From positions 26,309,201 to 26,373,200 of the forward strand of contig CP099846.1 of assembly GCA_030062745.1 (NCBI GenBank): DNA of 64,000 nucleotides. Direction: 5' to 3'. The notes under the pieces were generated by a model. It did not search any database and had not been told where the DNA came from. It was given only the letters and a program-made list of their open reading frames with translations. A program made the position numbers and the translations under genes. This stretch comes from Capitulum mitella. Taxonomy: Eukaryota > Arthropoda > Thecostraca > Pollicipedomorpha > Pollicipedidae. Positions within the stretch are counted from its first letter, which is position 1; each line of letters starts with the position of its first letter. Below, piece after piece: positions 23,491 through 61,222 of the stretch.

Positions 23491-23589
23491 CTAGCACTGG
23501 AACTCGGAGGCCGTGATGGCGTTCAAGTCCTTCATCAGGCCCTCCAGGTTCGCCATCTCCTGCGTCAGCTCCTCCGAGCTGTACGACGG
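23491..23589 (-). CDS. fra: fra last exon: P3 motif and stop
   Basis: PSYSSEELTQEMANLEGLMK then DLNAITASEFQC and TAG (23493-23491). This is the P3 helix, the most conserved part of the receptor tail. Acceptor ccccgttccag, phase 0. Confidence 0.96.
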   Translation of the reverse strand, partial: PSYSSEELTQEMANLEGLMKDLNAITASEFQC

Positions 23590-26500
23590 CTGGAACGGGG
23601 CGAAAGCGTGAGCTGCCGCAGAGGGTGGCACTCTGCGGTACAGTGGGAACGGCTGGCAGCACTGGCACGGCCCGGCTGATGAACGAAAAATGATAATACA
23701 GACCACACCACCATCGTTACGGATAACGACCGGCTAGCAGACATACACATGTCGATGACGCAATTACCTGACTCACGTTTCAAGGCACGTGACATTGCAA
23801 CATTCCACGACAAAATGCACTTCCTCTCATAATAAAACAACACCAACACAAGAACGGCACACACAATCATCCGATCGATTCGTGTCCGTCAGTGAAAACG
23901 CCAGAACGCACGACTGCATACGCCGCAGCCCCAGCCTGGCACCACACAACCGGCTCCCACAGCCGCCGGACGACCACCGCCGGCGGCGCGCACTGACCCG
24001 GAGCGGCGCCAGCTCCTCCCTGGTGGCGGTGCCGTCGGCCGGGCGCGGCGAGCCCGGGAACGAAGGCCGCTTGAGCGGGCTGCCGAGCGGCCGCGGCCCG
24101 GCCGCCGGCGGCGGCGGCGCCGGCACGCCGAAGCTCTTGAGCGGGTGCGGCTGCGGCGCCGGCGCGCGTTTGCCCAGCGAGCCGGAGTCGACGCTGCTGG
24201 CCGCGCTCGACGGGTAGCCGGCCGGCAGCCCGGTCGGCCCGCCCGCCTCCGACGACGAGGCCGACGTCAGGCCCAGGCCGGCTCCGTAGTGGCTCTCCGG
24301 CGCCGTGGGCGCTGCGGGCGCGACCGCGCGTGTCAGACGCTCGGTCCGCCCGCGCCGGCCACCGAGGCGGCGGCCGGCCCCCGAACGACCGGCGACAGCG
24401 CGGGCGACGAGACGCTTCGCGGCCATGAGTCCAGTGCAGGACGCGAATCGTCCCCGCCGGACGACACAGAATCGTGACCTCCAGAAACACCGACACACAA
24501 ACTCACAGGGATCGCCTCACTCAGCGTACCGTCGCAACACACTCCACACCACTCTACAGCGACCCCAAGACCGCATAAACCCAACAACGACACGGCAATA
24601 CGCCTGGCAGCATTCCCACCGAAAACACTACCGTGCTCTGACACATTACTCAACCGTGTACCTGGCCAACGTATGACCAGTAAGTCGGCGCCCCAAGTCA
24701 ACCTCCACCGTACATGTTCACGAAGTGATGGCCACAACCGCGCGACACCACCGAATCGGTCGACCCGGCGTCGCCGCCGCGACGCCCAAACACGCCCGCA
24801 GTCCGCGGCCGACTCACCGGGCGGCGGCGGCGGCTCGCTGCTCAGGTTGCGCGATATGCTGAACTGGGTGCGCGGGTACACGGGCCGCGTCTCCACCGTG
24901 CCGTTGGCCAGCGCCGTGGCCGACGTCCCAGGCTGGAACGGACGGGCCGCGTCAGAGGCCTGCGGCGACACGGGCGGCGGACTGCGGACTCCGCCGGCGC
25001 CTGCTGCACGGACCACAGCCTCAGCTGATACGACACGGACTGAACGGTGCGACAAGCCACTCTACAGAGACGACAGATAGACACCGAACTTCAGTATGAC
25101 ACGAAAGCGACGCTCCAAATGCCACATTCACACGACCGAGACACCGTGCGCCGCAAAGCCTCGGCTCGAATACTCACATTCCCGACGCGGCGCGACATCT
25201 ATGGGCACAACGATAGGCTTTGGTTTGAACACGGACCGCCTGTGGAGCTGCTTGTCTAACCGCTCCTCACTGCGGGAAGACCCTGCGCAGGAGGCGGGAG
25301 GCCGCGTCAAATCATGCGCCGCTGGACGCCCGACGCGCTTCGGGCGGCAACAGCCATGCACCAGCTAGGCAGGCAGGCAGACACAGCCAGTGCAGCACTC
25401 CGGCGCAGCCCAGCCAACGGTAAACAGTCAACTGTGCAGCAACACCTATGTGTGTCTCATCAAGCGTGCAAGGCAGTGAGCCGGGCGTTGGCGCGACGAT
25501 ACCGGCGGGCGGCGGCGCGGCGGAGATCTTCGCGGCTAGCACAGCCCGGCGGATGGACGGTGCGCGTGCAGGCTGGCGACAGGCTGTTGCCCAGGCGTGC
25601 GACCTCCCGTGGCGCGGCGCCCTCCCACCAGCGGTCCAGACCCAGCTCTTCAAAGTGACACACATCAGTGGTTTGGAAGCGTATTGCCATCAGTACCCCG
25701 AGAGCTGCCCCCACCACAGGCCCAGGGGCGACCGCCGCCGCCAGCTGCCACCGGTGACTCACGTGCACCCCAGCCAGACGTCCGAAGGCCGCCCCCATCG
25801 ACACCGCCGTGACGAGAACCCAGCGCGCTACCGACACCGCCTTCCCGGCCGGGAGCCGCGGCGGCCGGCCCACGCCGCGCGCCCACCTTTGCCGACGGCC
25901 GGCGACTGGGCGCGGCCGAGCCGGTCGCGCCGGTCCAGCGTCGACGCGAACGGCCGCCCGTCCAGCTCGTAGTCGGGCGAGTGGCGGCGCAGTGTCGAGC
26001 AGCTGTCCGAGCGCTGCTTGCCCATCGGGCGCAGCTCGGTCTGGTCGTGGTGGATCCACAGGTCGGGCGGCTTCAGGTCCGGCGTGCCGATCTCCGTCTG
26101 GCCCTTCACGTAGCTGTTGCTGCGGGGCGGAGGCGTCTCATCAGCGGCGGGGCGGGCCGGCGGGCTGCGCACCACGGGCCGGCGCAGGACGGGGGGCCGG
26201 GCGCCCGACTCTCGGAAATTACGACCTGCGCCAATCACCGACGAAACAAGGCCAGTCTCTCGATATCAGTGTCACTGCCATCGTCGGCGCCGTGTGCGTC
26301 CGCAAGCAACCACACCGGTGGCGCTTGCGGAGGCAGAGGCAGCCCACCGGTTCAACGTCTAAAGAAGAATACGCCTAGACAATCGATGCGCTAAGCCGTA
26401 AAATGCAACACCAATGCCGGCGATCCACGCAGAGCACAGCCAGCCGCTAGCTCTCCGGCACCTCAAGGACACCAAACGTCAACGCAGAACTCCGGAAAAT

Positions 26501-29500
26501 TATTGTTTAAACAGCGTAAATTATTGTAAATTATACTGTAAATTATTCTTCCGCAGAGCGACGAAACCGCAGATTTCCTGGGCCATTGAGAGCCGGCCCG
26601 GCCACGGCTACTGTCGGCCGCATACCTCTTGTGGCCGCGGCGAGGCGCCTGTGGTCCGGTTTTGCGCTTGCAGAAGCAGACGGCGCCGATTATGACGATC
26701 ACCAGCAGGAGGGTGGCGGCGCAGGCGATCACGACGTACAGCAGGTGGTCGCCGAGGCCGCCGCCTGCCGGACCAGGCAACGGGCGTCCTCAGGTGGCCG
26801 CCGACCACGTCACACACGTCACGACACGGACCACGTCACGAGACGGGCCGCGGAAGACACGTCACGACACGGACCACGCCAGACATGTCACGACACGGAC
26901 CACGGCAGACAAGTCACGACACGGACCACGGCACACATGTCACGACACGGAGCACGTCACACACGTCACGACACGGGCCACGTCACGACACGGACCACGT
27001 CACGAAACGGGCCGCGGAAGACACGTCACGACACAGACCACGTCAGACATGTCACGACACGGGCCACGTCACGAGTCGGGCCGCGGTAGACACGTCACGA
27101 CACGGACCACGTCAGACACGTCACGACACGGACCACGCCACACACGTCACGACAGGGACCACGTCACGAGACGGGCCTCGGCAGACACGTCACGATACGG
27201 ACCACGTCAGACATGTCACGACACGGACCACGGCAGACAAGTCAAGACACGGACCACGTCACGACGAGGACCACGTCACGAGACGAACCGCGGCAGACAT
27301 GTCACGACACGGACCACGGCAGACAAGTCAAGACACGGACCACGTCACGACGCGGACCACGTCACGAGACGGACCGCGGCAGACATGTAACGACACGGAC
27401 CACGGCAGACATGTCACGACACGGACCACGGCACACATGTCACGACACGGACCACGACAGACAAGTCACGACACGGACCACGGCACAAATGTCACGACAC
27501 GGACCACGGCACACATGTCACGACACGGACCACGGCAGACAAATCAAGACACGGACCACGGCACACGTCACGACACGGACCACGGCAGACAAATCAAGAC
27601 ACGGACCACGGCAGACAAGTCACGACACGGACCACGGCAGACAAGTCAAAACACGGACCACGTCACGAGACGGGCCGCGGCAGACACGTCACGACACGGA
27701 CCACGGCACACACGTCACGACACGGACCACGGCAGACAAATCAAGACACGGACCACGGCACACATGTCACGACACGGACCACGGCAGACAAATCAAGACA
27801 CGGACCACGGCAGACAAGTCACGACACGGACCACGGCACACACGTCACGACACGGACCACGGCACACATGTCACGACACGGACCACGGCAGACATGTCAC
27901 GACACGGACCACGGCAGACAAGTCACGACACGGACCACGCAAAAACAGAACGCACGAACGGACCACGGCAACGTCACGACACGGACCACGGCACACATGT
28001 CACGACACGGACCACGGCACAGTCACGACACGGACCACGGCACACGACGTCACGACACGGACCACGGCAGACAAGTCACGACACGGACCACGGCACACGT
28101 CACGACACGGACCACGACAGACAAGTCACGACACGGACCACGGCACACATATCACGACACGGACCACGGCAGACAAATCAAGACACGGACCACGGCACAC
28201 GTCACGACACGGACCACGGCACACATGTCACGACACGGACCACGGCAGACAAATCACGACACGGACCACAACACACGTCACGACACGGACCACGGCACAC
28301 ATGTCACGACACGGACCACGGCACACATGTCACGACACGGACCACGGCACACATGTCACGACACGGCAGCACGTCACACACGTCACGACACAGACCACGT
28401 CACGAGACGGGCCGCGGCAGACACGCCACGGCACGGACCACGGCACACATGTCACGACACGGACCACGGCACACATGTCACGACACGGACCACGGCACAC
28501 ATGTCACGACACGGACCACGTCAGACATGTCACGACACGGACCACGGCAGACAAGTCACGACACGGACCACGTCACGAGACGGACCGCGGCAGACACGTC
28601 ACGACACGGACCACGGCACACATGTCACGACACGGACCACGGCAGACAAGTCACGACACGGACCACGTCACGACACGGACCACGGCAGACAAGTCACGAC
28701 ACGGACCACGGCACACATGTCACGACACGGACCACGTCAGACATGTCACGACACGGACCACGGCAGACAAGTCACGACACGGACCACGTCAGACATGTCA
28801 CGACACGCACCACGTCACACACGTCACGACACGGACCACGGCAGACATGTCACGACACGGACCACGGCACACATGTCACGACACGGACCACGTCAGACAT
28901 GTCACGACACGGACCACGGCAGACAAGTCACGACACGGACCACGTCACAGACACACACGTCACGACACGGACCACGGCAGACATGTCACGACACGGACCA
29001 CGGCACACACGTCACGACACGGACCACGTCACGACGACACGGGCCACGGACCACGGCAGACACGTCACGACACGGACCACGGCACACATGTCACGACACG
29101 GACCACGGCAGACAAGTCACGACACGGACCACAGGCACAGACAAGTCACGACACGGACCACGGCACACGACAGAACGGACACGCACGACACGTCACGACA
29201 CGGACCACGGCAGACACATGTCACGACACGGACCACGGCACACATGTCACGACACGGACCACGGCAGACAAGTCACGACACGGACCACGGCAGACATGTC
29301 ACGACACGGACCACGTCACACACGTCACGACACGGACCACGTCACGACACGGACCACGGCAGACACGTCACGACACGGACCACGGCACACATGTCACGAC
29401 ACGGACCACGGCAGACAAGTCAAGACACGGACCACGGCAGACGACACGGACACGGCAAGACACACGGACCACGGCAGACACGTCACGACATCACGACACG

Positions 29501-32500
29501 GACCACGTCAGACATGTCACGACACGGACCACGTCACACACGTCACGACACGGACCACGTCACGAGACGGGCCGCGGCAGACACGTCACGACACGGACCA
29601 CGGCACACATGTCACGACACGGACCACGGCAGACAAATCAAGACACGGACCACGGCAGACAAGTCACGACACGGACCACGGCACACATGTCACGACACGG
29701 ACCACGGCACACATGTCACGACACGGACCACGGCAGACACGTCACGACACGGACCACGAGTCACGACACGGACCACGGCACACATGTCACGACACGGACC
29801 ACGGCACAGACAAGTCACGACACGGACCACGGCACAACACGTCACGACACGGACCACGTCACACACACGGACCACGGCAGACAAGTCACGACACGGACCA
29901 CGGCACACATGTCACGACACGACACGGACCACGGACGCACGGACCACGCAGACAAGTCACGACACGGACCACGGCACACAACGTCACGACACGGACCACG
30001 GCACACATCACGACACGGACCACGGCAGACACGTCAAGTCACGACACGGACCACGGCAGACAAGTCAAGACACGGACCACGGCAGACACATGTCACGACA
30101 CGGACCACGGCAGACAAGTCACGACACGGACAACGAACAGTCACGACACGGACCACGTCACGGACCACGGCAGACACGTCACGACACGGACCACGGCAGA
30201 CACGTCACGACACGGACCACGGCACACATGTCACGACACGGACCACGGCAGACAAGTCAAGACACGGACCACGGCACACATGTCACGACACGGACCACGG
30301 ACCACGACACGGACCACGGACACGTCACGACACGGACCACGGCACGCACACACGACACGACACGGACGCACGGCACACATGTCACGACACGGACCACGCA
30401 AGACAAGCACGGCAGACAAGTCACGACACGGACCACGGCACACACGACACGACCACGGACAGACACGGACCACGACAGACAAGTCACGACACGGACCACG
30501 GCAGACAAGTCACGACACGGACCACGGCACGAGACAAGTCACGACACGGACCACGGCAGACATGTCACGACACGACACGAGACCACGACAAGACAAGTCA
30601 CGACACGGACCACGGCAGACAAGTCAAGACACGGACCACGGCACACATGTCACGACACGGACCACGTCACGACAGTCACGACACGGACCACGGCACACAT
30701 GTCACGACACGGACCACGGCACAACAGACACGGACCACGGCAGACAGCACGACACGGCGACACAGTCACGACACGGACCACGGCAGACAAGTCACGACAC
30801 GGACCACGGCACACATGTCACGACACGGACCACGGCAGACAAGTCACGACACGGACCACGGCAGACAAGTCAAGACACGGACCACGTCAGACATGCCACG
30901 ACACGGACCACGTCACACACGTCACGACACGGACCACGTCACGACACGGACCACGTCACGAGACGGACCGCGGCAGACACGTCACGACACGGACCACGGC
31001 ACACATGTCACGACACGGACCACGGCAGACAAATCAAGACACGGACCACGGCACACAAGTCACGACACGGACCACGGCACACATGTCACGACACGGACCA
31101 CGGCACACATGTCACGACACGGACCACGACACGACAGAAAGTCACGACACGGACCACGGCACACATGTCACAGTCACGACACGGACCACGTCAGACATGT
31201 CACGACACGGACCACGGCACGACACGTCACGACACGGACCACGTCACACATGTCACGACACGGACCACGACACGACACGGACCACGACACACGACACACA
31301 CGTCACAACACGGACCACGGCAGACAAGTCAAGACACGGACCACGGCACACATGTCACGACACGGACCACGTCAGACATGTCACGACACGGACCACGGCA
31401 CACACGTCACGACACGGGCCACGTCACGAGACGGGCCGCGGCAGACACGTCACGACACGGACCACGTCAGACACGTCACGACACCGACCACGTCACACAC
31501 GTCACGACACGGACCACGTCACGAGACGGGCCGCGGCAGACACGTCACGACACGGACCACGTCAGACATGTCACGACACGGACCACGGCAGACAAGTCAC
31601 GACACGGACCACGGCAGACAAGTCAAGACACGGACCACGGCACACATGTCACGACACGGACCACGTCACAACACGCACGGTAAACTGACAGCACCGGTAA
31701 CAAAAGCCGAGCCCATCCACCAGGCGTGCGCAGAGAACGGCGATGACGGCTGAACGGCCAGGGTTTTACTGTCAGATTACACTGTCCACAGCGGCTGCAG
31801 AAAGGCAACGCCTCGGCAAGGCCGACAGCTGGTCGGCACTTCACTGAGCAGGCTGTCGCCAGAGCGAAAAAACTGAAAACTTCCGGCGGAAGTCAGCCGA
31901 CATCTGAGAGCGAATATTACTTAAATATAACACTCCCAGGGCTCCCGAGCCACTGACGTGCCGGCGACTGAGTTCCGTGGAAGGCGGTCATTTCCGGCGG
32001 AGCGTGATTTCTACCGTCTGGAGCACGCCCCCAGGGAGATTCGCGGAGCGTCCATGACGGCACGTTCAAGGGCCGCGGGCCGCATTAATCATAAGATAAC
32101 CCGGGAGCAATCGCCAAGTCTTCTGCGAACGTCCAATACCTGATCTGGGATGTGTTTGATCGCCTACGCGCGAACTCAGCCAAGAATATTTCAATTTCGA
32201 GGGTCAGCCATTCGCATAACTACATGACGCAGCCGCACGTGTCTGCTGCAGCATTCTGCTTTTAAAGCATTCTGTATGTCTCACGGTAAACACAGTTTTG
32301 CGGTACGCACGCACCGGCCTGTGGTCACAGCAGTGAACGAATGATTCCTTCGTTGCTTGACTTCCTCAGCATAAGTTACAAGTCAGCCATCGTGAGAAAA
32401 TAACAATGTTTTGGTCGTCAAAAGCTGGAATAGGTACTGTTTCATTTTAATCATGGCATATACGTTAAGGAATGCCTCGTGTTTCTGTCTATCTGGTATA

Positions 32501-35500
32501 CCCATGTTTTCTTAAAACAATATCGTTGCCTTTTACATCGTTACAGGACAGGAGACATCACTTCACAAGAACTCCGTTGTTTTTCAGCTACCAAACAACG
32601 CCATTCGAAAATCTAAAAAAATATATATAATATTTCAACTTATTTTTCATAGGCTTGGTAAATATCGTGTTCCGAACCGCACGGATAACCAAAACACGAC
32701 GGGGTTCACAACTAAAACAAATAAAAAGGAGTCACGGACAAAGCATTGCAAAGAAACGGCCAACAGTACTTTGATTCCACCGCAAAAGGCATCATCAGAG
32801 GCACACAAAAAGCGAGGGGACATTGTCTGCATTCCAGCAAAACGAAAAGACAATCTCACGAACGAAAATGCGATCCACGAATGATACAACAAAGGAGAGC
32901 GGGGCGTTCAATGCTCACCTCCCCTCCGGCGGTCCGCCAGGCTATAGCCGGGGTCTAAAAAAAACGAAACAAAAACGTCAGCTGGATGCGTGAGCGGGCC
33001 AAGCGCCGGGACACGGCAGAACAGAACACCGCCAGCGCAACGGAACAACTCAGCAGAAACGGCAGGCGCAACAGGGGGCGGACCGGCGTTCACTGGCAGG
33101 ATCTGTCCCTCAGTCGACAGGCGTCCAGCACGGTCAGTGGCGTGGACCAGCCGCCATCCTGACACCGAGCACATCGAGGCGCCGGGCTGGCGCCCGCAGA
33201 AAAGCGCGTGCAAACGCATGCTCTCATCGACACTGCCATGCCACAAGCAGTAGTAAACGAAGCCACACGGGCTTGATTTCCCGTTGCGCATGCATCGCAT
33301 AGTTCATCGTTCCGTTCGATTCTGAGACATTCTTAAACTCAGGAGATTTGCAATGAATTTCGGACTGAGACCACTTGTCAAGAACGAGCCCCGAGTTTTC
33401 GCTTCCCGTGAAGCAGTAGCTCCAATCACAGCCTAGTCAGCTCACTAAACAAGGATAGCCAATTCCATCGGGCATATCTCGGAATTCCGTCGACCCAGCC
33501 GTAGCCCGGCCGTCCGCCTGGTTCTGCAGCGGCCGTCCCTGGCCGGCCGCGGGGCTCAGCGTCAGAGAGGGCCGTACAAATCAGGCGCCGCCGACAGGCA
33601 ATCGGCCCGCTCAGAGCGGCCGGTCCGATCAATGGTAACGGATTGCCCAGCTGGCCACAGGACTGACCGACCGGACCTGGTCCCGTCATCTGCCGCTGGC
33701 CACAGCCATAACCGGCCAGACCTGGTCCAGTCATCTACCGCTGGCCACAGCACCAACCGGCCGGACCTGGTCCAGTCATCTACCACTGGCCACAGCACTA
33801 ACCGGCCGGACCTGGTCCAGTCATCTACCACTGGCCACAGCACTAACCGGCCGGACCTGGTCCAGTCATCTACCACTGGCCACAGCAATGACCAGTCGGA
33901 CCTGGTCCAGTCATCTACCACTGGCCACAGCAATGACCAGCCGGACCTGGTTAGACTATCTACAGCTGGCCACAGTACCGACGGGCTGGACCTAACCCCA
34001 CGATCTACCGTTCCCATAACAATAACAGGCCTGACCTGGTCCAACTATCTACAGCTGACCAAAGTACTGAGGCTGTGCCTGGTCCAATCATCTACAGCCC
34101 CCACAGTAATGATGGGCTGGACCTGGCTCAACATCCACACTGACAAGCCGTTTCACCTTGTATGGCACGAAACCAGCTGCTGACCGTACCGAGTCCAGAA
34201 ACTGGCAACGGCGTCCTCTGCGACTTGCATACATGACAGCCAGACATTTAACGTTCAACATGCACGTGCTTGATCTCAAGAACACGCTAAGGAAAGGGCG
34301 AAAGAACTGTCTCTTATGTCACAAACATTCAAACATAAGCAATTACTTCCATTCACAACACGAACACGGTAAAAGCACAGCTCCAAAATCAAAACGAGTG
34401 CATAAATCCCCGGCACGTTCCCATAGGAAAACCAAGCCCACCCGTCCACCACTTACCCAAACAGGACCAGGCCGGCCTAGTGCAACCCAACACCCTGTAA
34501 CATCCACTCCCGCGCTGGGCCCGGACCGGCAATGTCCCCCCGGGTGCCGGGCAGGCCGCCGGCGTCCGGCCGGCCTACCTGAGCTCGTCTGCAGCTTGAC
34601 CGGCCGCGAGATGGGACTGTTGCCGGCACCGTTGCGCGCCTGGATGCGGAACCAGTAGACGGTGGAGGGCGTCAGGCCGCTGAGCGTGGTCGTCATCTCG
34701 TCGCCGACCACCGGGTGCACCAGCCAGTCGCGGTCCGGCAGCGACCGGTCCGTCGTGTACTGGATCACGTAGCCTGCGGCGGCGGCGGCGGCGGAGGCGG
34801 TCAGGGCCGGCGGGCGGTGACGCGCCGCCCCGACGGACGAACTCATGGGCCGTCCCGTGGTGGCCACTGAAGAGGTCTGCACGTCGCGCCGACATGCACA
34901 GCGCAATGCAAGCTTCACGAAACCGTCGCGCGGCGGGCGATTGTGCGCAATGAACTGACGTTCCAAGCGTTAAACTATCAATGTCCAAAAAGTAATATCA
35001 TGCAACTGTCGTACATTGCGTTACGACCTTTCCGCACCAAAAAGGCAGAGCTTATTTTCCCGCTTCATGACAAATGTGTCGCATTCTGCGTTCCCCGTGC
35101 ATTTCAAACCATACGGCGCATCCCGTCAGCCTTTCGGTAGCACGACTCTTCCCCGACCACCCCACCCGCCCTCCGACCGAACGCCGTCTCCGGTCGCTGC
35201 ACTTGCCGTCGATCTTGCCGTTGGGCGCCTTGGGCGGCTGCCAGTTGAGGTTGATGATGGCCGGGTTGTCCTCCGACTGGACGATCGTGAGGTCGCGCGG
35301 CGGGCTGGACGGCGGCGCCTCGCGCGTCTGGTTCACCACGATCAGCGACCAGTCCGACTCGCGGTGGCCCTGCCGGCGCCACGCGGCGGCTGAGCGGCGG
35401 CGCGGTCCAACCACGCCACTGCCCTTACAACTCACGGCGGACGCGGCGGATGCGCTCACGCTCACGCCCACCGCAGACGGCATCACGTCACGCGACTCGC

Positions 35501-38500: not shown

Positions 38501-41500
38501 TCAGGGAACAATTGAAACAAACATTTGATGCAAGAGCATTAAAAAGAGCGTTTGTTTGGTTCTGGAAGTAAACATCCATTTCAAACATGCTTTCTTCCCC
38601 CTGCCAAATACCATTCAGCAATGAGGAACAGCGACGAAGAAGGCACGTAGCCCCTCTCACACTTACAGCCATCCACCACACCCCTCAGGTTGCGCACAAC
38701 AGTCCTCCAAACACACCACGGAACACCTGACAGCCAACCACCACAGCCGCGCCACACGGCCCGGCCGCGCCCTGACCTGGGCCACGTAGAGCCGGTAGCC
38801 CGCCGGCGGCGGGCTGACGGGCGCCCAGCTGGCGCGCAGCCGGGTGGCGCCGGCCGGCCGCAGCTGCAGCTGGCGCGGCGCCGGCGGCACCGTCCGCTCC
38901 GGCTCGGTGCGAAGCCGCAGCGGCGGCCCGCTCCGACCAGCCCGGTCGCCCACGTTGGCCACCACGCGGAACGTGTACTCGGTGTCCGGCTGCAGGCCCT
39001 GGATCTGCAGGCTCGGCGAGCCGGCGCCGGCCGTCGTGTTGTGCACGCGCTCCCTGCCGCCGGCGGCCGGCGCGTTACGGTCGGGCCCGCGCGCACGGTC
39101 AGAACGCACCACAGTCGCCAACACAGTGCCCCAGCCAAACCAACAGGCAGGGTCAGAACGCGCCACAGCCGAGGCACTTCAGGCATCGAACGGAAAAACA
39201 TAGCACGCCGCATAAGGAATACCATCTATCCAGCCGCACCGCAATCGGAGATGAAACATTTCCACGACGAAGACACACCAGCTCAGGTCCGAACAGATGC
39301 AGTGCAGGAGCCCCGAGTTTACATGTCGTCTCCTTCCTGGCTCCAACGCTTGACAATGTCCCCTCCGGCCGTCAACCACCGACCTCTTCCCCAGCTGTCC
39401 CCTTTCACCGGCAGCGCCGTCCGCCCCGGCCCGGCGTCTCACCTCTCGGAGCCCTCCTGGTGGTAGACGACCGAGTACGAGGTGACGGCGGCCGTGCTGC
39501 TGAGCGGCTCGCGCCAGGTCAGCGTCACGAACCGCGTGCCGACGATGCGCGCCGTGAAGTTGCGCGGCGCCGTGGCGGCGCCGGCGGCCGCCGCGCTGTC
39601 GGCGCCCGCTGCCAGGGCCGGGCCGCCGTTATGGGCGCGTCCACTCTCTGAGGCGGGGGAGGACGGGCGGGAGGCGGGCAGGGCGGGAGGGAGGCGAACG
39701 AAAGAGACGTTAGTGAGGCGCGGCGGCGGTCGGCGGCCGCGCAGTCGACCGGCGGTGGCAGACGCGGACAGACACGCAGACGGACAGACACGGCATGCGG
39801 TGGCCCGGACGGCGGCCTGCAGCGGCGGGCCCGAGGGCCCGGCTCGGCCGGCGTCGCCGCCCGCTCCACTCTGAGCGGAAACGTGGAAACACTGGTCGCA
39901 AATGCTCCTCACAGGGCCGGACGCCAATGGCGTGAGGGTGAAGGAACGTGCAAATGAACTGCCCGAAATCGTTATCTGAATGCATGGGGCCCAGCTAAGT
40001 AGCGGCGCTTGCACGTTTATAATGCTTAAATAGACAGGTGGTTTCCGAATTTGACGCATACAATGTCGAGCCTTTCCATTAGAAAGGACATGACCAGAAC
40101 CTGGTGGGTAAATGATTTAAAATCGGACAAGGTGAACAGGTACAAACAAGAAACAGACGTTGAGTGACTGGTCTGAATTAGCCCCCTTTTTTATCCCTCC
40201 AGGAGATTAACTATGATAATCTCGGCCGTGCATCCATGATATTCCAAATGCCCTACACGGACGATGAAATGCAGAAACGGACACAAAACAGATGTTCTTT
40301 GCAAGCATGATTCAATCCATACAGATATCCGTGCACTGTTGAAAACATTGATGAAAGGCCGCTAACGTAAGCACGACAAAAAAATATGAGGAAGCATGTC
40401 ATACGAGTACCTACACACATGAATGCACACAAGCCTTGTAAAAAGGTTCAGAGCAGCCAATCTAGCAACAGATACGTATCAGAAGACGTAGAAACCTCAG
40501 AGAAAAGAAACGATCTGGACGACGGATTTATGGATGAGGGATAAACGTCAGCATCATGCCTTACCATCATTGAAGGATGGTTTGCAAGGATTCTTGGCGC
40601 GACAGCGGTACAACAACTGTACAGCTCTTTGCAGCGGTAAGCGATGTCAGCGTAATATGCTTCGGCGCAAGCATAACAAAGTCACCTTCCACGTGTTAAG
40701 TGTGTCAAAACACGATATCAAATTCACATCCAGGCAAGTTTTACGCTAGGCAAGCCGCGAGCAGCACATGTCTTGAGCTCGTCGCCTAACGCTCCTGCCT
40801 GCCTTCAGCAAGCTCGGCAACAGCCAAAGTTCGGGGGGGGGGGGCGGGGGGGCGGTGGGCGTCCCCGCGCCGGGGGGGCATCCGCCGCCGACGTACCCGG
40901 CGCCAGGACGCTGAGTCGGACCGCCGTCTGCACGTTGCCCGCGTCGTTGGCGGCGAAGCACTGGTAGACGCCCGCGTCACGCTGCACCAGGCCGAGGATG
41001 CGAAGACTGCCGCCGTCCACCAGCTGCGTGGGCAGAGGGTGACAGACTGAGACAGTGGACCGCAGCGGGGACGGACAGACTGCTGCTGTCCGCCAGCTGC
41101 GCGGGCAGAGGGTGACAGACTGAGACAGTGGGCCGTAGCGGGGACGCACAGACTGCTGCTGTCCGCCAGCTGCGCGGGCAGAGGGTGACAGACTGAGACA
41201 GTGGGCCGCAGCGGAGACGGACAGACTGCTGCTGTCCACCAGCTGTATGTACAGGCGGGGAGAGAGGCACGGGATTCCCCTAGGCCGGGTCGAGGGCTGT
41301 ACACACATGCTTCAACATCAGTGTACGGCGGTCAGATACCACGCAGGAGGGCGACCACATCAGCCACGGGCCGCAGACATGGCCGGGGCCCGGCCCACCC
41401 GGCGCCGCCTCGTCCGTCGGGACCCCTCAGCAGCCAACCGAAATCAGCATCAACTGACCGAACCAATTCCCATCTAACGGCCGACATTACCCTGTTCGCC

Positions 41501-44500
41501 GCATCGCACAGCACTCGAGCGGCGCCCCAGAATACACGCTCCGGCCTGATTGTATACAATGCAGCCGACAGCACGCCCCATCCGGGACAGGACCCACGGC
41601 CGGCGGCGCGCGTCGGCGCGGAGGCCCACCTGGAAGTACTCGGAGTTGTGCAGCTTCTCGCCGTCCTTGGTCCAGGTGATTTCGGGCGGCGGCGCGCCGC
41701 GCGCCCGGCACGCCAGCTCCACAACCTCCTTCTCGGCGGCGGCCGTCTGCTTCGGACGCACCTCGAACTCGGGCGGCACTGCGCGGCAGCAGGCGGCGGC
41801 TCAGGACGGCGGCGCGGCGCGCAGAGACGCAGGGGACACGATGCACAATACACGATGCACCACATGACACGTCACGACGCGTCACGTGGTTGGGACCGCC
41901 ACGGTAAACGGTGCGGAGACCCTCTGACGAGCACGCAGAGCAGGGCTGGGACGGCACACGACATACGGCAAACGACGGGGAGACCGCATCAGAGGCACTG
42001 ACGGCAGGACGCAACGCCCACTGTGGACAGGCCGTCCGACTGGCCCAGCAGGGCTGGGACGACCCAAACGGAGGACTGACGGCCGGGAGGCCGGCCGACG
42101 CGAACAACAGGGCGGACACGACGGACGACGTGCGACCGACGGCGGAGGGGCCGCCCGACGGCCGCAGCACGCCTCAGCGACCACGCCCGGCGCCCAGCGA
42201 GGACAGGTCCGCGCTGGGCGACCACGAGTCCGACACAGACAGGTGTCCACGGCTCTCTGCGGCGTCGACTCGGCACCTAAGACTGCGCCCGTCTTCAACG
42301 GAGGCGGTGACAGAGGCCGAGTCGAGGCGACGCCCAGCACACGACTACTGGCCCCGCGGCTCTTCGGCTGGCACAAGGCACAGCCACAGCACAAGGCACG
42401 CGGTCTTCATGGTCCCTCGGCTCAGCACACCAAACAGGACTCGCCGTCCGGAAGCGGGTCGCAGGGCGGAGCTGGGAGTAGCCCAGAGCGGCTGTATGGC
42501 AGCCATCTCCGATTTCGAGAAGACAAGCTGTCTCGTGCTGCCCCGTCATGTCTGCTGCTCAAGAGCGCCAGACGCACTTCAAGACCCGCATGACAGCTCT
42601 CCAGTGTGCTTAGTTTCCTACACGATATGAGCCATATCTCAAGTTCCACAGGTCCTTGGCCTGTCTAGCACAGGTTATGAGTTTGGTGCCATGCACCTGC
42701 TCGCAAAAGGCCATTTTATCAGCTCCGATCTCGACCCAGGCCCTTCCCACTAAATCCGCCATGTTACGCTGATTACAGCACTTTCGCAGCTGCAGATAAA
42801 TCGCACGTCCCGGCTTCCCAGCGGAAACGTGCAGCGCGAGTTTCCGCAGCGATACACGCTGGACGGCAGAAAGGCAGCCCTGGTGTTCCCGGAGGCGGCA
42901 ATGTTTGCCGGAGTGTACGCCCCAAGGGAGGTCCAGTGGCCCGATATAGGCACTCGTGGGAGTTTTCGGACAGATGCGCATCCAGCTGGCTGGTATATGG
43001 CAAGTTTTCGTCGAAAAATGGTCTGTTACGGGGAGTCCGATACGGAGAGTTTCCCGACAATATCCAATGAAGGTTGAATGTGTGCGATTCTAGACTACAT
43101 TTGGCGACACTCACAGCTTCATTCTGATCCCTACGGAGCTCACGGCCTGATGAGAAGCCGTGATCCATCGTCTGTTCGTCAGAACCGACCAATGGCTGGC
43201 TTAAACCAGCATCATTAGCTTAATCCAAAGAGGTACAGCCTATGTCCAAAAAGTGAGGTGGGCGTAGTAAATAAGACTAAAAGATTATCTACGCCACCAG
43301 GTGTCCAGCCGTCAGAAAAAATCGCATTTGTCAATTCTATTGAGTCCCATACAGCTGAAATTGGTTTCGAAAGGCTCAAGTGAACAACCTTAATTAGCCG
43401 TCTGTATTGTCCTTAGTTGGATTTCCATTGGGATTACTGAAAGCCAGTCGACTTTCACCAGACGACGGCAAACAGGTGTTCACTTTTCGTTTCTCGCTTT
43501 GTCGGAACTGGGGTGAATGACCGCTCTCCTCACTCCGGTTTTCCGAACTGCGGGGGCGCCGCTGCCGTTTGCCCCTCCGCCCCGCTCGAATGCATCGCTG
43601 TCCGGCAGACCAGCCGGGCGCCCTCCGCCCCGCTCGAATGTATCGCTGTCCGGCAGACCAGCCGGGCGCCCTCCGCCCCGCTCGAATGTATCGCTGTCCG
43701 GCAGACCAGCCGGGCGCCCTCCGCCCCGCTCGAATGCTTCGCTGTCCGGCAGACCAGCCGGGCGCCCTCCGCCCCGCTCGAATGTATCGCTGTCCGGCAG
43801 ACCAGCCGGGCGCCCTCCGCCCCGCTCGAATGTATCGCTGTCCGGCAGACCAGCCGGGCGCCAGCGCGCCGGTCGGGAGTTCTATACCGCGTCCGGACGG
43901 CTCGGCAGCGCCGCGCGTCCACGGCAGAGGCCTCGGCGCCGCCCGACAGCGACAGACGCCAGCAGACCAGGCGTGACCCGGGGCGCCGCACGCCACGCCA
44001 GTGTCGACGAGGCCGGCAGAGTTGTCACGCCGCACCGCTCCCGCTGCGTGACGATCCTATCGACACAGGACCTACCCTGCTGGTCGAAGCCCATCCGACT
44101 GACCGCTCCGAAGGATCACAACGTACCGCGAACCCGGAGCACGGCGCTGGCGTCGACCGAATCGGCCGAGTTGTACACCCGGCACTGGTAGGTGCCCGAG
44201 TCCTTCTCGCGCACGTCCACGATCTGCAGACTGCTGACGCCCAGCATGAAGAAGCGCCGGTCCAGGTACCTGGCGTGCACCGGCAGAGCCGTGAGGCGCG
44301 GCACCTCATGATGACGTGGGGTCAATGCAATAGTGCAGGAGTCCGTAAGCATGGTATGTGTTTGCGACACGTAGTGATTCGTAGGCGTTACACCTGTCGC
44401 GATTCATCACCCGCATCGCCGCAATTTATCGAGGAATTCTGAAACTGTAGCACCCTAGAATCCTAGAATCCGAGAATTAGGCGTAATCATCAGCGGTTGC

Positions 44501-58200: not shown

Positions 58201-60158
58201 CGAGGCAAGCCTGCTCCAATGCTCCTGAGGACCCGGGTCGGACGAGGCAAACCACGACCGTGCAATCTCAACGCTCGCTGGGAAACGGTCAGACCATCAA
58301 CTTAACATGGAAGCCAAACAGCAGTGGACCACGATCTCCGCCAGCTCGACAAGCCCCCGGCTGACGTGCTGGCACACGGCCGAGCCGGCCGAGCGGCTGT
58401 GGGTCGCGACTCGGCCGAGCCGCCCATCTCCGGCGACCCACTGACCGGCCGGCCTGCAGACAGCACTCAGCGGCCGGCGGCCAGCGTCAGCGCCCGCGGC
58501 GCCTGCGGCAGGCCCAGCACCTGACTCTCCTGGCAGCCGCCGCCACCGCAGACGGCGCCACGGCCGGCCAGGTCGCCAGTGACCGCGCCGACACCGTCAG
58601 ACCGCCGACAGCGGCCGACCGCGCCATTCCCCCTCCCCCTTCACCCCCCCCGCGGCCCATACGACCGTGACTGCGGCCGGCCGGCCCCGGTCACAGCTCG
58701 GCTCCGGCCGGCCGACCGCGCGGCCGCCCCCGACCGGCCGTCCGTCGTCCTCCGCGGCCCACTTGTTGCACGCTAATGGTCCGCGCACGCGTCCAGCCTT
58801 GGCCAAATTGAGACGAAGTGTCGTGCAGCCGACCCGCCGGCCGGCTCCGGACACGTTCGGTGGACGGCACAGGACCGCCGCGCCAGCTCCCAGTCAGAGG
58901 AGCTGGGGGGGGGGGGGGCCGGGACGCGGCCGGGACGGAACCATCCGAAAAGCAACCGCGACCGACTCCCACAATGTCTGAGTCTACGTCTGAGTCAAGA
59001 CCAGAGCTGGAAAAGGTACCGTTTTGTGTGTGTGTGTTGAAGGCCACCACAAAATAAGTGCTCCAAAAACATTTTATACTCAAAAGGTCTGATTTTGTGC
59101 CCCATCAGAAAGCTACATTACAACCACGTTGAAAGATTCCTAACTCTGCAAGCAAATGACTGTCTCCGTTCAGTAAAAAGCAGGTACAAGGTCATATCCG
59201 CCTTGAGTCGGTATGACATTACACCTGACTTACACCAATAACGCCCGCTTTAACTATTATTACTCTTCGCAAAATGCTGTACTCCAAAACAAAAATTATG
59301 TTCCGATGCGAACAAAAACCAAATTTCCAACCCTGGTACAGACTGAGCTAGGACCACGCCGTATGTCCAACCGAACGGCCGGCGATTGGGTCAGAAGCAT
59401 CTATCTATCCGATGGCACGACCGACTCCGTGCCACAGCCCGGACAGCGGCTGAGCCGCCTCTTTCGCGCGGAGCGCCGGCGCCGCGCCCTCCGACCGGAA
59501 GTCCTAAACCGAAACGGGCGTCCATTACATGACGCGGCGCGCGGCTGCAACGCCGGCCGGGGCGCCGCGGGGCGCTGCGGGGCGCCGCCCGCCCCTGCAG
59601 GTGTCCGGGCGCCGATTCGGCGGCCGATTGCAGCGTCGGTTCTCGGCAGCGCGGCCCGCCGCCGGCCGGGTCAGGGCCACCGCGGCGCGCTCCGCCGGGC
59701 CCGGGCACCGACCGGGCCCCGCCCGTGCACGGTGCTCCATCACGTCTGACGTCACGAAACGGCGCCGGATGGCGCGGCCGTGATTCGGTCAACCGGCGGC
59801 TCCCGGGGACAGGCGGGTCAAGAGCGGCGGCGCGGCTCCGGCCGCCCCGGGTCTGTCGCCGGGAGTCCGCGGCTCGGAGTCCACAGCCCCGCCAGAGTCC
59901 GTCCGACCGCCGCCAACACGGGCCGGCGGCGCCATGAAAGCCCGGGGGCGCCTCGGCAGCAGACAGCGCTGGCAGGACATGACAGGCCGGCGCCGCCGCC
60001 GGCTAGGGCCTGCCGGCACGCGCCACCGCGTCCAGACGGCACCGCTCGGCGCGGCGCCGACAGACGGCTTGACAGATCGGCCCGGTGGCGCCGAGCGCGA
60101 CGGGCATTCCGCGTCGCAACCGCCTGTTTACGGCCGCCGACGAATGAGACGCGCCGCC
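55290..60158. other. Presumed 5' intron or upstream region of fra
   Basis: No exon for the signal peptide or the first half of Ig1 was found here. Composition alternates between GC-rich (56900-58900, 59450-60150) and AT-rich (57350-57600, 59050-59350) patches. G or C homopolymers occur near 55988 and 58907. ORFs are shadows of GC-rich DNA. Confidence 0.45.
56477..56510. repeat. 13-bp inverted repeat around a CACGTG core
   Basis: gcgacaggtgtgt and its complement acacacctgtcgc flank gacacgtg. It can form a hairpin, and it contains an E-box-type hexamer. In the presumed 5' intron of fra. Confidence 0.85.
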
Positions 60159-61222
60159 CGCGGAACGACCTCGGGCGGTGACCCCGACCCCGCGGGACCA
60201 CCTCGGGTGGTGACCCCGGCCCCGCGGGACGACCTCGAGCGGGTGACCCCGGCCCCGCGGGACCACCTCGGGCGGTGACCCCGGCCCCGCGGGACGACCT
60301 CGGGCGGTGACCCCGGCCCCGCGGGACGACCTCGGGCGGGTGACCCCGGCCCCGCGGGACGACCTCGGGCGGTGGCCCCGGCCCCGCGGGACGACCTCGG
60401 GCGGTGACCCCGGCCCCGCGGGACGACCCGGCGGTGACCCGGCCCCGCGGGACGACCTCGGGCGGGGACCCCGACCCCGCGGGACGACCCGGCGGTGACC
60501 CCGGCCCCGCGGGACGACCTCGGCGGTGACACCGGCCCCGCGGGACGACCTCGGGCGGTGACCCCGACCCCGCGGGACGACCTCGGGCGGTGACCCCGGC
60601 CCCGCGGGACGACCTCGGGCGGTGACCCCGGCCCCGCGGGACGACCTCGGGCGGTGACCCCGGCCCCGCGGGACGACCTCGGGCGGGTGACCCCGGCCCC
60701 GCGGGACGACCTCGGGCGGTGACCCCGGCCCCGCGGGACGACCTCGGGCGGTGACCCCGGCCCCGCGGGACGACCTCGGGCGGGTGACCCCGGCCCCGCG
60801 GGACGACCTCGGGCGGGTGACCCCGGCCCCGCGGGACGACCTCGGGCGGTGACCCCGGCCCCGCGGGACGACCTCGGGCGGGTGACCCCGGCCCCGCGGG
60901 ACGACCTCGGGCGGTGACCCCGGCCCCGCGGGACGACCTCGGGCGGGTGACCCCGGCCCCGCGGGACGACCTCGGGCGGTGGCCCCGGCCCCGCGGGACG
61001 ACCTCGGGCGGGTGACCCCGGCCCCGCGGGACGACCTCGGCGGTGACCCCGGCCCCGCGGGACGACCTCGGGCGGTGACCCCGGCCCCGCGGGACGACCT
61101 CGGGCGGTGACCCCGGCCCCGCGGGACGACCTCGGCGGTGACCCCGGCCCCGCGGGACGACCTCGGGCGGTGGCCCCGGCCCCGCGGGACGACCTCGGGC
61201 GGTGACCCCGGCCCCGCGGGCC
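60159..61222. repeat. 32/33-bp GC-rich minisatellite, about 33 copies
   Basis: The unit is gacgacctcgggcggtgacc followed by ccggccccgcgg, with a one-base length variant (ggcgggtg). On the minus strand each unit reads GGGGCCGGGG, so the array has strong G-quadruplex potential. It produces a spurious 382-codon minus-strand ORF. Confidence 0.97.

Follow-up and report, generated by a model that had tools for sequence, protein, structure and literature searches.

A 73-bp minisatellite spans the 3' splice site of an Ig4 exon in a netrin receptor gene of Capitulum mitella

Does a minisatellite that repeats a 3' splice site of a netrin receptor gene act as an isoform switch, or is it a by-product of repeat growth? 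The locus lies in a 64,000-nucleotide window of Capitulum mitella DNA (contig CP099846.1, positions 26,309,201 to 26,373,200), and receptor features are given in window positions. The receptor gene, on the minus strand, is of the DCC/neogenin/frazzled type, combining Ig domains, FN3 domains and a Neogenin_C tail within one gene. A home-made profile located part of Ig1, Ig2 and the two halves each of Ig3 and Ig4, and a separate home-made profile located the FN3-type exon pieces. The first Ig4 exon (41630..41778, from the sequence, the DCC Ig4 alignment and the I-set profile) ends with ...SEYFQ in phase 0 (TAC TTC CAG, followed by GT), and its donor is GTGGGC from 41629. The second Ig4 exon (LVDGGSLRILGLVQRDAGVYQC..., 40897..41023, from the sequence and the DCC Ig4 alignment) has the donor GTACGT. 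Joined, the two exons align with DCC Ig4 (3laf) without a gap at the junction (YFQ-IVGGSNLRILG in 3laf, YFQ-LVDGGSLRILG in the receptor; 71.0 bits for that domain), and we therefore take 41024 as the conserved acceptor, which gives an intron of 606 nt (41024..41629). This ungapped alignment, together with the genome's two reported Neogenin_C matches, both inside the gene (23506-23595 and 25993-26076), bears out the initial annotation of a netrin receptor.

Tandem Repeats Finder places the minisatellite at 41004-41245 (period 73, 3.3 copies, 93% matches, 0% indels, score 421). Read on the minus strand and in register, it comprises three complete units followed by a 23-bp partial one that extends 20 nt into the second Ig4 exon. 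The array thus crosses the 3' splice site and copies it along with the first 20 coding bases of the exon. CAG followed by CTGG occurs four times on the minus strand, starting at 41245, 41172, 41099 and 41026, and the first exon bases after the four CAGs are 41242, 41169, 41096 and 41023. The multiplication of the splice site proposed in the initial annotation therefore holds, in its coordinates and in the exact 73-bp spacing of the four acceptors. Its further description, of a polypyrimidine tract copied with each acceptor, needs amending for the distal site, whose tract is flanking sequence outside the repeat. Any two full units show 4 mismatches over 73 bases. Against the intronic copies, the partial copy in the exon shows 2 or 3 mismatches over 23 bases, two of them at sites where it carries G and every intronic copy A. 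The ancestral acceptor could be either the distal or the canonical one, as the sequence is compatible with both. An upstream extension of the array as decayed copies was considered and found unconvincing (in-register identity is 29 of 73 bases overall and 12 of 25 at the end, a level that 5.3% of shuffles also reach). A search of the 477-Mb assembly (16 contigs), which skips very common words, returned no second copy of the array besides itself. At least 150 scored Chitin_bind_4 matches in this genome, along with its size and contig number, agree with an arthropod such as a barnacle.

The four acceptors, all on the minus strand, differ in their predicted consequences. The canonical acceptor (41024..41026) is the one joined to conserved coding sequence in the DCC Ig4 alignment. 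Use of the distal acceptor (41243..41245) would add the 219 nt from 41242 to 41024. This stretch, in frame with Ig4 and free of stops, would, as had been predicted, place 73 extra residues between the ...SEYFQ and LVDGGS... segments of that domain. The two middle acceptors would shift the frame, also as predicted. The first (41170..41172) would add 146 nt and, judging from the frame translations, would run into a stop in the next (FN3-1) exon, and the second (41097..41099) would add 73 nt and reach a stop within the second Ig4 exon.

The open frame of the distal form might be taken as a sign of coding, so its frequency elsewhere matters. Within the gene span, 6,124 of 32,282 positions (19%) start an open frame of 219 nt, as do 1,069 of 3,782 positions nearby. 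When units were shuffled and repeated three times, 1,591 of 5,000 (32%) were open over 219 nt, and 2,814 of 5,000 shuffles of the whole 219-nt stretch were open. Because openness is common both in the gene span and among unit shuffles, we reject the open stretch as a sign of coding selection: such frames are common in this GC-rich receptor gene and are no evidence of coding. The predicted insert translates a single DNA unit in three successive frames, a pattern that does not resemble selected coding sequence. Against the I-set profile, the insert-bearing form splits the match into two stretches and lowers it from 74.6 to 66.4 bits.

Acceptor strength was scored with a position matrix trained on 53 myosin acceptors from this genome, which had been chosen by that matrix. 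On this small and partly circular scale the distal acceptor scores -3.13, both middle copies 2.55 and the canonical site 1.05, with a leave-one-out median of 3.07 in the training set. The corresponding percentiles among the leave-one-out scores, subject to the same small size and circularity, are the 2nd, the 43rd and the 15th, so that the distal acceptor is the lowest of the four and the frame-shifting middle copies are the highest. The distal site has 77% pyrimidine at -25 to -4 (68% for the repeat-copy acceptors), yet carries purines close to the AG (tgtacatacag). A second AG within each 73-bp unit scores 1.05-1.81. The AG with the top score in the Ig4 intron (4.65) lies upstream of the array, at 41279, which makes the limits of the matrix evident. 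A search of the 80 nt upstream of the canonical acceptor for a yUnAy site found none, only GTCAC at -17. All three decoys keep an intact CAG and two of them outscore the canonical site; given this and the lack of a yUnAy match, site strength alone does not predict exclusive use of the canonical acceptor. All that the partly circular matrix shows is that the in-frame distal site has no advantage and that the frame-shifting sites match or exceed the canonical one; this second point weakens a simple account in which the best site wins. Canonical use would need help from exon definition or exon enhancers. The in-frame distal isoform of the initial annotation keeps its 219-nt frame, but its functional meaning has weak support, open stretches being common and its acceptor the lowest-scoring of the four.

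Similar arrays are found at other exon edges of this genome. We sampled 105 domain matches (66 myosin head and 39 I-set) with 150-bp flanks, 224,131 bp in all. These are the placed share of 236 reported matches (86 myosin, 150 I-set) and a best-scoring, non-random set: the rows entered for placement numbered 84 for myosin (of 86) and 47 for I-set (of 150), the I-set rows being chosen by eye because they fell in the sampled loci. As the sampled items are domain matches, some of their edges are not exon edges, and five pairs lie in shared open frames, leaving at most 101 separate frames. With a cut-off of period at least 20 and at least 1.8 copies, 42 minisatellite intervals cover 7,460 bp of the sample. 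Outside the receptor gene, boundary-spanning arrays were found at 5 of the 105 sampled matches, two at acceptors and three at donors, the edges being assigned by homology and splice consensus.

Of the acceptor arrays, the one at C1:19017383-19017548 has a 38-bp unit at an Ig exon; among its upstream copies one keeps the CAG and two have lost it. This was the only array for which an upstream exon fixing the phase was found, and use of the surviving CAG, 71 nt from the true site, would shift the frame. The other (C9:11618607-11618769, 88-bp unit) has a single decoy, which is intact. At the donor array C11:8468282-8468409 (43-bp unit), GTCAGT is kept by two decoys and lost in one. The myosin GYPSR donor array at C2:10684317-10684713, with units reported as 23, 45 or 68 bp, carries CCGTCCAG joined at the donor to GTGGGCAG six times, true donor included. 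The next exon was not found within the sampled loci for these last two arrays. In the myosin donor array at C14:5784870-5785121 (79-bp unit), the true donor is GTGAGG and both decoys are GCGAGG, as expected if selection acts on the true site only. The GC decoys there would fit either decay of decoys or selection against them; several other arrays retain intact decoys, so such selection does not act generally.

Several further arrays were left out of the boundary-spanning count. Those at C16:5450066-5450222, C9:23180126-23180201 and C14:17200523-17200573 proved intronic on viewing, the one at C6:25059104-25059209 lies inside coding sequence, and three more (C1:14898681, C12:3443277 and C2:10682094) lie inside matches. 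The array at C9:11638754-11639144 was set aside as ambiguous; it consists of 14 diverged copies of a 28-bp unit directly upstream of a Robo-like Ig exon, and is possibly a decayed boundary array.

Recurrence at boundaries does not imply that boundaries attract repeats. Five of the 210 edges lie inside arrays, close to the mean of 7.4 (95% range 3-13) obtained when these arrays are placed at random. Excluding the 5.6 kb of sampled DNA that belong to the receptor gene leaves 41 arrays on 6,687 of 218,560 bp and an expectation of 6.8 (range 2-12). A distance profile of the first 93 matches has no clear peak at the edges. Its 3' side has a mild rise, to 5.4-5.5% at 20-60 nt outside the match compared with 0.4-4.8% farther out, with few arrays behind it; its 5' side is no higher at the edge than elsewhere. 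With an edge rate at background, we reject an attraction of minisatellites to splice boundaries and regard boundary-spanning arrays as an expected product of a minisatellite-rich genome.

Arrays of this kind have a precedent in amphioxus. The Adh case there is reportedly due to Canestro et al. 2002. Ebner et al. 2010 (PMC3087553) describe mirages, minisatellites that duplicate exon-intron boundaries, and give BflGb6 with 6 and 3 units in two haplotypes; the PGBD5 paper (PMC3902484) adds TnC and PGBD5. The authors conclude or suggest undisturbed splicing for the globin, Adh, TnC and PGBD5 cases. Ebner et al. take the Adh3 data and their RT-PCR to suggest regular splicing without interference, and add that mirage copies might act as cryptic sites. 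These two papers were the only ones on amphioxus mirage minisatellites that we found in the open-licence literature. In the same literature we found no paper on mirages in a crustacean, barnacle or other arthropod, which does not imply that none has been published.

The receptor array shares with the amphioxus mirages tandem units of minisatellite size across an exon-intron boundary and copies of the splice signal. Several genes are affected in each genome (here at 5 of 105 matches outside the receptor), a trait reported for mirages rather than strictly defining them, and both acceptors and donors are hit. In the receptor array the exon-attached copy is the most diverged (2-3 of 23 bases), while the distal unit resembles the rest (4 of 73). 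On sequence grounds, the array is best read as a minisatellite of the mirage kind, of the amphioxus type. It differs in its host, an arthropod, in its gene, a netrin receptor, and in its unit of 73 bp, against 10-72 bp (Adh3), 60 or 108 bp (PGBD5) and 150-160 bp (globins) as quoted for amphioxus. Haplotype instability and RT-PCR are described for some of the amphioxus cases, whereas the receptor array is known from the sequence of one assembly.

Two other systems are related in part. As described in PMC4930329, vertebrate Dcc has a long and a short isoform through alternative exon 17 sequence that adds 60 bp (20 residues) between FN4 and FN5, a choice regulated by NOVA through binding sites in intron 16. 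This is alternative exon sequence in the same receptor family, but it affects the FN4-FN5 linker and not Ig4, and no boundary-spanning minisatellite is mentioned in the passages on it. In the Rogers model, as set out in PMC2891723 with Drosophila cases, introns are gained by tandem duplication of AG/GY proto-splice sites. There too tandem duplication yields new splice signals within a gene, but coding sequence is duplicated and part of it turns into intron, whereas in the receptor an existing intron edge was multiplied and no new intron is seen.

Three other explanations of the receptor array were weighed. Distal use might be a functional alternative 3' splice choice that puts 73 residues into Ig4 and alters the Ig domains, with copy number setting the frame of the long form. 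That the 219 nt are open and in frame, and that PMC4930329 documents a real exon 17 isoform pair in vertebrate Dcc, speak for it. However, chance gives the same openness at 19% of positions in the gene and for 32% of unit shuffles, the distal acceptor scores last of the four on the small, partly circular matrix, and the insert is one unit in three frames placed within an Ig domain and not in a linker. Similar arrays also occur at unrelated exons, most with units that are not multiples of 3 (38, 88, 43 and 79), and the myosin array on C2 has reported units of 23, 45 or 68. We regard this explanation as improbable. The frame-shifting copies could instead serve as an expression rheostat, in which decoy use routes part of the pre-mRNA to nonsense-mediated decay and copy number sets the receptor level. 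The middle copies do outscore the canonical site on the small, partly circular matrix, and a stop in the second Ig4 exon (second middle copy) or, probably, in the next exon (first middle copy) would follow their use. Recurrence at background rate argues instead for a passive origin, and a rheostat appears just as doubtful to us. An assembly artefact, with the repeat collapsed or expanded or the array confined to some haplotypes, deserves mention as minisatellites are error-prone in assembly and, according to PMC3087553, the draft amphioxus genome contained an aberrant assembly of the BflGb6 array. Distinct substitutions in each unit, however, indicate that the array is not one stretch copied, the search of the assembly gave no second copy, and five further boundary arrays exist elsewhere in the genome, which makes an artefact highly improbable.

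Frame openness, site strength, recurrence and background rate favour a passive mirage. We consider it probable that the receptor array is a mirage in which the canonical acceptor is mostly used and the copies are near-neutral decoys removed as intron; rather than serving as a dedicated isoform switch, the array most likely arose from repeat growth as a by-product close to neutral. One end of the initial tandem duplication would have lain about 20 nt into the exon, so that the 3' splice site was copied together with the start of the exon, and repeated duplication would have produced the three 73-bp units. The spliceosome would mostly pick the acceptor on the real exon (41024), and the copies, leaving with the intron, would keep the array close to neutral. 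Low-level use of the decoys could yield frame-shifted mRNAs from the stronger middle copies, probably lost to nonsense-mediated decay, and, from the weak distal copy, a rare in-frame insertion of 73 residues.

The sequence has so far given no evidence of a functional effect on the receptor. If the sampled rate holds, the mirage phenomenon described in amphioxus would extend to an arthropod genome, a few per cent of exons would have their own splice site repeated in a minisatellite, and these would be natural tests of how the spliceosome chooses among near-identical adjacent sites. It is a slim prospect that minisatellite growth over splice sites maintains a standing, copy-number-variable reservoir of acceptors and donors, in which a unit count that is a multiple of three would give an in-frame Ig4 insertion isoform, other alleles would lack it, and individuals would differ in the receptor forms they make.

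Other minisatellites occur in the window. About 4.8 kb of a 26-bp family (26832-31665) lies inside the receptor gene span. A 45-bp array is present in 7.6 copies at 33651-34095 and a 32-bp array in 33 copies (95% matches) at 60157-61220. Between the Ig3 and Ig4 exons, a 48-bp array (43573-43862) has 6 copies with 97% matches, and its near-identical units suggest recent growth.
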